DNA from: Caminibacter mediatlanticus TB-2
GTDB taxonomy: Bacteria > Campylobacterota > Campylobacteria > Campylobacterales > Nautiliaceae
DNA: 64,000 nt
Direction of reading: 5' to 3'
Assembly: GCF_005843985.1 (NCBI RefSeq)
Contig: NZ_CP040463.1
Coordinates: 417,001-481,000, forward strand
The notes under the pieces are model-generated. The model searched no databases, was not told the origin of the DNA, and saw only the letters and a program-made list of their open reading frames with translations. The position numbers were made by a program, and so were the translations under genes. This document shows positions 280 to 1,314 of this stretch, one piece after another. The stretch's first letter is position 1. Every line of letters starts with the position of its first letter.

Positions 280-285
280 TATAAT
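280..285 (+). promoter_or_regulatory. Candidate -10 box for tRNA-Ser and rnz
   Basis: TATAAT lies 10 bases before the first base of the tRNA. No good -35 is seen at normal spacing, as is common for housekeeping promoters in Campylobacterota, where the upstream element is usually A/T-rich sequence. No other promoter is evident between the tRNA and rnz. Confidence 0.5.
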
Positions 286-295
286 TGCAATTCTT

Positions 296-383
296 GGAGA
301 GGTGGCCGAGTGGTTTAAGGCGCACGCCTGGAACGCGTGTGTGGGGCGACCCACCGCGGGTTCGAATCCCGCCCTCTCCGCCA
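296..383 (+). tRNA. tRNA-Ser (anticodon GGA)
   Basis: The acceptor arm GGAGAGG pairs with CCTCTCC, the discriminator is G, and CCA (381-383) is encoded. The anticodon stem CACGC/GCGTG encloses CTGGAAC, giving anticodon GGA. A long variable arm is present, as expected for a class II serine tRNA. The last 30 or so bases match the other serine tRNA at 42215. The Shine-Dalgarno of the next gene, rnz, begins right after CCA, so the tRNA and rnz probably share a transcript. Confidence 0.95.
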
Positions 384-393
384 AAGGGAAATG

Positions 394-1314
394 ATGAAGT
401 TTTTATTTTTAGGAACATCTGCTGGAAGGCCTACAAAAACAAGAAATGTATCAGGATTGGTAGTTGAATTTGAAAATGATAATGGTTGGTATCTTTTTGA
501 TTGTGGAGAAGCCACTCAGCATCAGATTTTAAAAACTACATATTCACTTAATAAGTTAAAATCTATTTTTATTACTCATTTACATGGAGACCATTGTTAT
601 GGATTGTTTGGTCTTATTACAACAAAAATGATGGAAAAAAGTTCTTCTCCTTTAAAAATATATGCGCCAAGAGGTTTAAAAGAGATGATAGAAAGTTGTG
701 TAGATATTAGATTTGAGCATTTAGGATATGAAATAGAATTTATTGAAATTTTTGGTGGATTTGAAGAAGAATTTGATAAATTTTCAATAAAAGTATTACC
801 TTTAATTCATTCAATAGAGAGTTATGCTTATTTTATAAAACAAAAAGATAAATTTAATCTAAATAAAGAATTGTTACAAAAAGATGGTTTAGCACCTTCA
901 AACTATTATAAAGATTTAAAAGAAGGAAAAGAGGTTATTGTAAATGGAGTTATATATAAACCTGAGAAGTATTTAATAAAAAAAGAAGGCAAAAAAGTTA
1001 TTATTGCAGGTGACAATGCTGAACCTGATATTTTAGTAAAGTATTTAAATAATCTTGATTTATTAATCCATGAAGCTACATATACTCAGGAGGTTTTTGA
1101 TAATTTAGAAATTAAATATCTTCATACAACTGCAAAAAATTTAGGAGAAGTCGCTAAGAGATATAATGTTAAAAATTTAATTGCTACTCATATTTCACCA
1201 AGATATGAGGGATATGAAATTTTAGAAGAAATTAAAAAATTTTATAACGGAAATGTATTTGTAGCAAATGATTTTGATATGTTTTTATTAAAAGATTACC
1301 TCATTTATCTTTAA
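394..1314 (+). CDS. rnz: Ribonuclease Z (tRNA 3' endonuclease)
   Basis: Metallo-beta-lactamase-fold tRNA 3'-processing endonuclease of 306 residues, the usual length for short-form RNase Z. The start MKFLFLGTSAG is typical and the zinc motif HLHGDH sits at residues 62-67; a further conserved region reads IIAGDNAEP and later THISPRY. I chose ATG 394 because AAAGGG at 383-388 gives five bases of spacing; ATG 391 is the alternative. The gene starts 10 bases after the CCA of tRNA-Ser, so cleavage of that tRNA would trim its own mRNA. Its 3' end overlaps convergent dnaX by 14 bases. Confidence 0.95.
   Translation: MKFLFLGTSAGRPTKTRNVSGLVVEFENDNGWYLFDCGEATQHQILKTTYSLNKLKSIFITHLHGDHCYGLFGLITTKMMEKSSSPLKIYAPRGLKEMIESCVDIRFEHLGYEIEFIEIFGGFEEEFDKFSIKVLPLIHSIESYAYFIKQKDKFNLNKELLQKDGLAPSNYYKDLKEGKEVIVNGVIYKPEKYLIKKEGKKVIIAGDNAEPDILVKYLNNLDLLIHEATYTQEVFDNLEIKYLHTTAKNLGEVAKRYNVKNLIATHISPRYEGYEILEEIKKFYNGNVFVANDFDMFLLKDYLIYL

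Follow-up and report, generated by a model that had tools for sequence, protein, structure and literature searches.

Genes for tRNAs and proteins share one transcript in the thrU-tyrU-glyT-thrT-tufB unit of Escherichia coli, and the nucleases RNase III, RNase E and PNPase of the same organism autoregulate by acting on the 5' region of their own mRNAs. Another tRNA-mRNA polycistronic transcript of E. coli, secG-leuU, is cited in a published report (PMC3985628). The RNase Z of Thermotoga maritima cleaves after CCA, and nearly all tRNAs of its genome encode CCA; that of E. coli can act on CCA-containing precursors with Co2+, while with the Bacillus subtilis enzyme the presence of CCA makes the initial velocity 1520-fold lower in Mg2+ and 5.8-fold lower in Co2+ (PMC7479834).

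Here we analyzed a window of 64,000 nucleotides, the whole stretch of DNA at hand from the vent-type bacterium Caminibacter mediatlanticus TB-2, in which the RNase Z gene, rnz, directly follows a gene for tRNA-Ser(GGA) (Table 1). The genome of the window is called G000 below; other G numbers denote relatives and L numbers denote loci. As in the E. coli tRNA-mRNA transcripts, a tRNA and a protein gene would lie on one RNA and be separated by processing, and G000 itself also has tRNA-Thr-tuf and tRNA-Trp-secE neighbors. Unlike in E. coli, the tRNA comes first and the gap is only 7-10 nt, which would place a cut at the ribosome-binding site; moreover, the product of the gene is among the candidates for the processing enzyme. 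The logic proposed for the locus, a nuclease acting on the 5' region of its own mRNA, is that of RNase III, RNase E and PNPase, but the leaders of those genes are dedicated structures, whereas the element in G000 is a functional tRNA whose linkage to the gene is not conserved.

Table 1. Features of the tRNA-Ser(GGA)-rnz locus, in window coordinates
Feature	Position	Strand	Basis and remarks
mfd 3' end (transcription-repair coupling factor), conserved left neighbor of the tRNA	1-74	+	C-terminus matches mfd of G101 at 84%; the G101 protein is TIGR00580
MITE-like repeat, ~170 bp, between mfd and the tRNA promoter	62-235	.	6 near-full or partial copies elsewhere in the genome, 82-90% identity
Predicted tRNA promoter TGATATAAT	277-285	+	-10 hexamer 280-285, predicted start ~292-293; family conservation
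tRNA-Ser(GGA) gene	296-383	+	ARAGORN; Rfam RF00005, 62 bits
Encoded CCA	381-383	+	sequence; discriminator G at 380
Shine-Dalgarno core AAGGG	384-388	+	sequence, abuts CCA; AAGGGAA spans 384-390
rnz, RNase Z	394-1314	+	TIGR02651; phmmer to B. subtilis RNase Z 1y44; alternative in-frame ATG at 391
dnaX, conserved right neighbor, convergent with rnz	1301-2764	-	NF006280, 640 bits; position same in relatives

The first-pass annotation of this DNA had placed the CCA end of the tRNA at 383 and the rnz start at 394, and ARAGORN and the sequence bore out both coordinates. It had also let the hexamer AAAGGG begin on the base after CCA; the Shine-Dalgarno does sit directly at the CCA, but the first base of the hexamer, at 383, is also the final A of the CCA. 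Two in-frame ATGs, at 391-393 and 394-396, leave a gap to the tRNA of 7 or 10 nt, and the second is the start to which rnz homologues align. A GTG-started open reading frame at 337, running through the tRNA into rnz, was rejected as the start because homologues begin at 394. Folding of the RNA from 292 to 440 revealed no stability beyond that of shuffled sequences (z -1.26), and the cloverleaf was not the minimum; the fold is therefore uninformative on masking of the Shine-Dalgarno.

Every family relative with the upstream side available has, a short way 5' of tRNA-Ser(GGA), the motif (T)TGATATAAT or a variant close to it (GTTATAAT, GCTATAAT), and the tRNA leader predicted for G000 is only ~3-4 nt long. 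A sigma-70-type scan found no promoter or terminator in the gap between the tRNA and rnz, and no TANAAT box was found in the 75 nt 5' of rnz, which are tRNA sequence, so that the earlier statement that no promoter lies between the two genes held. Because no promoter or terminator fits there, rnz is almost certainly, judging from the sequence, the second cistron of the tRNA-Ser(GGA) transcript, read from the single promoter before the tRNA. An rnz start inside the tRNA gene, with rnz not co-transcribed, strikes us as highly improbable: no evidence for one was found, the 3' half of the tRNA offers no AT-richer sequence except the T-loop TTCGAAT, and the 75 nt before rnz are GC-rich, constrained by the tRNA and devoid of an acceptable -10 box. 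Output of rnz probably follows the activity of the tRNA promoter and the efficiency of tRNA 3' processing. A cut at the 3' end of the tRNA would place the Shine-Dalgarno at the very 5' end of the message, and to this extent the near-leaderless rnz mRNA envisaged previously is plausible; the naming of RNase Z as the cutter found no support.

To place the tightness of the junction in context, we examined the surroundings of every tRNA cluster in the genome and determined the distance to the next same-strand gene. The rnz gap was the shortest, followed by those to the genes for a 308-aa membrane protein (15 nt) and a 240-aa protein with a nuclease-like C-terminal half (15-24 nt), to a purN-like gene (26 nt), to a secE-like gene (30 nt) and to a 399-aa open reading frame (88 nt). 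Apart from rnz, these genes carry names that we assigned from their translations, and the 399-aa frame we take, by its size and position, to be tuf. The rnz gap is thus the tightest of a series and no outlier in kind and, with four other gaps of 30 nt or less, its tightness alone is unexceptional.

The order mfd, tRNA-Ser(GGA), variable region and antisense dnaX recurs across the Nautiliaceae, and full rnz is present in 6 of 21 family genomes; in those of groups g3 and g4 the variable region is without it. Among related species, a tRNA beside rnz was seen only in G000 and, at a distance of 115 nt from tRNA-Ser, in G088. The comparison among relatives that the first-pass annotation had called for therefore went against a conserved tight fusion, the family sharing only the tRNA-Ser/rnz neighborhood. 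Between tRNA and rnz of G136 lie 5.7 kb of inserted DNA that encode a tyrosine integrase and end in 17 nt repeating the tRNA 3' end. The distance grows to 28.6 kb in G062, which has the same type of integrase and a 17-nt tRNA copy ~10 kb in, and is 17 kb in G015, where a different tyrosine integrase lies beside the tRNA and a 10-nt tRNA copy stands 14 nt before rnz. G201 has a 13-nt copy of the tRNA 3' end ~80 nt before rnz, with the tRNA absent from the contig stretch taken. An integrase together with a duplicated tRNA 3' end flanking the insert thus marks this tRNA gene as an integration hot spot in G136, G062 and G015. These inserts resemble known tRNA-gene genomic islands in their tyrosine integrase, in the intact tRNA at one end and in the 10-17 nt copy of its 3' end at the other; they differ in that the island sits between the tRNA and the downstream gene, the window showing the unoccupied state. 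By sequence match, a promoter-like TANAAT box starts ~20-38 nt 5' of the rnz start in G136, G201, G062 and G088, and none was found 5' of rnz in G000 or G015.

In trees of dnaX and mfd, g1 and g4 formed one group and g2 and g3 another (the deepest split being weak for mfd), and rnz is present on either side of the deepest family split. The rnz tree retains the g1/g2 split which, with the distribution of the gene on both sides, is consistent with vertical descent, and the simplest history suggested by these sequences is that the mfd/tRNA-Ser/rnz/dnaX neighborhood is ancestral to the family. A recent import of rnz as island cargo is unlikely, given the g1/g2 split kept in its tree and its presence at the same locus in two genera. 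The trees do not fix the placement of G000 inside its genus. Since G015, of the other genus, has a tRNA 3'-end remnant 14 nt from its rnz start, the close fusion could date back to a common ancestor or could be the product of two separate events.

Several of these loci have further features of their own. The 17-kb island of G015 (L086/L087, G015:C1:266500-289000), which carries the integrase, contains a Z1/DUF4420/AIPR/cytosine methylase/Vsr cluster that resembles the Mza defense system (MzaC and MzaE matches). The 28.6-kb region of G062 (L088/L089, G062:C2:391000-424500) encodes two cytosine methylases, an integrase and a protein with an IetA-like AAA match, and the position of its tRNA copy part-way along suggests two stacked insertions. 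At L102 (G075:C35), from the same genus as G000, rnz is a C-terminal remnant next to tRNA-Met, an apparent gene loss.

Across the order, rnz is an accessory gene: 75 of 200 genomes had a match, ~48 of them at more than 190 bits. No tRNA adjoined rnz at the loci examined in the order outside the family, the nearest being a tRNA-Lys more than 1 kb away (L010). A wider set of 80 rnz loci from Bacillota, Pseudomonadota, cyanobacteria, archaea and others, gathered by alignment-based search of genome contigs, had no tRNA within 1 kb, a few contigs being shorter than this on one side. In the open-access literature, we found no report of a bacterial rnz-tRNA fusion or of RNase Z autoregulation. In most loci of family f4, which makes up the main part of L032-L047, rnz lies directly 3' of an open reading frame whose C-terminal end, by eye, is tyrosine recombinase-like.

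We also asked which type of RNase Z the gene encodes. Its product matched TIGR02651 with an E value of 3.6e-84 (282.4 bits over 295 residues, slightly below the curated cut-off of 292.95) and the T. maritima-type model TIGR02650 with 38 bits; the closest PDB match by phmmer was B. subtilis RNase Z 1y44 (197 bits, against 36 bits for the T. maritima type). The catalytic metal ligands H62, H64, D66, H67, H139, D207 and H266 were invariant in the 16 homologues aligned. With its HxHxDH signature, further His/Asp ligands and full-length match, the protein is, on sequence grounds, a bacterial RNase Z of the B. subtilis type. Every one of the 42 tRNAs in the genome has its CCA encoded (41 end in CCA by ARAGORN; the SeC tRNA, clipped by ARAGORN, is followed by GCCA). 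G000 therefore resembles T. maritima in its tRNAs but not in its enzyme, and tRNA-Ser(GGA), with its encoded CCA, is no canonical RNase Z substrate, which would be a CCA-less tRNA gene. A CCA-adding-type nucleotidyltransferase, RNase J and RNase Y are present in the genome; RNase E/G was not found there. In the rnz-less relative G048, CCA is encoded in all 36 tRNAs recovered, which suggests that tRNA 3' maturation in the family can proceed without RNase Z.

These data bear on the autoregulatory loop originally proposed, in which RNase Z cuts its own transcript after the CCA and thereby frees its own mRNA (positive feedback) or, through the 5'-monophosphate-dependent RNase J, destabilizes it (negative feedback). 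The geometry of the junction fits such a loop, release of the tRNA calls for an endonuclease, and with RNase J and RNase Y present but RNase E/G not found, RNase Z is a candidate, the more so as T. maritima RNase Z cuts after CCA and the E. coli enzyme can use CCA-ended substrates (PMC7479834). Translation might also need the cut, since a 30S subunit placed on the start at 391/394 would cover part of the acceptor stem, so that unprocessed RNA is possibly poorly translated; but for the same reason any enzyme that freed the tRNA would aid rnz expression. Against the loop, the enzyme is of a type strongly inhibited by CCA (TIGR02651 282 versus TIGR02650 38 bits; PMC7479834), rnz-less family members process all-CCA tRNAs, and the arrangement is not conserved, although a selected loop should have left some conservation. 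We therefore consider it unlikely that a self-cut after the CCA sets the expression of rnz as a tRNA-gated gene in an all-CCA genome; regulation by RNase Z of its own transcript lacks support, and the data do not point to a dedicated feedback loop. Whether feedback, if any, would be positive or negative is not predictable from sequence, as RNase J might equally well act on the freed 5'-monophosphate end.

We think it likely, instead, that the locus is an ordinary tRNA-mRNA co-transcript with rnz as second cistron, and that the closeness of the two genes is a species-level derived state, produced by spacer loss at an island-integration hot spot. The tRNA-Ser(GGA) promoter would drive a joint tRNA-rnz transcript, RNase P would generate the tRNA 5' end, and an endonuclease, not necessarily RNase Z, would part tRNA from mRNA at or just after the CCA, with separation expected near 383/384; after a cut behind the CCA, the released short-leader rnz mRNA would begin near 5'-AAGGGAAAUGAUG. 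As to the route, maturation of tRNA-Ser by RNase Y, another endonuclease or 3'-to-5' trimming, a sub-case of the co-transcript reading, seems to us a real prospect, though slightly short of evenly balanced. Both RNase Y and RNase J are present, and rnz-less relatives must mature the same encoded-CCA tRNA in some such way. Exonucleolytic trimming would cost one rnz mRNA per mature tRNA, and the linkage would therefore hold rnz expression low; the tRNA-purN and tRNA-secE junctions speak against trimming, suggesting that tRNAs can be separated from needed mRNAs without loss of the mRNA. Historically, rnz would have been ancestral at the locus, with the tRNA 3' end serving as attachment site for integrases and with repeated island insertion there and repeated loss of rnz. 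In the G000 lineage, a deletion at the hot spot appears to have removed a spacer with the gene's own promoter, leaving rnz dependent on that of the tRNA.

The arrangement is thus real and was correctly seen, but it has the appearance of a chance event confined to one lineage, at a hot spot of DNA integration. It illustrates how islands entering a tRNA gene can part the downstream gene from the tRNA promoter. It also raises the questions of how tRNA 3' ends mature in bacteria that have RNase J and RNase Y but lack RNase E/G and whose tRNAs all encode CCA, and of what role RNase Z plays in the minority of species that retain rnz. The self-cut, if true, would make the locus a compact natural sensor of tRNA 3'-processing capacity.

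Mobile elements were also found near the locus. The MITE-like repeat has 30-nt imperfect terminal inverted repeats; its copies, which we aligned, include one at G000:C1:1105736-1105902. One copy lies just 5' of tRNA-Leu(GAG) and another ~140 nt 3' of tRNA-Phe, and the repeat possibly prefers tRNA neighborhoods. Further along the window are two identical 684-bp IS1-family elements (3375-4058 and 4372-5055) with 15-bp terminal repeats GGCACTGACCTAAAA and apparent 8-bp target duplications AGTTACTG and GTAATTCT. The second of these splits dctP into two parts (4157-4384 and 5071-5838); in relatives, G048 among them, the gene is uninterrupted.
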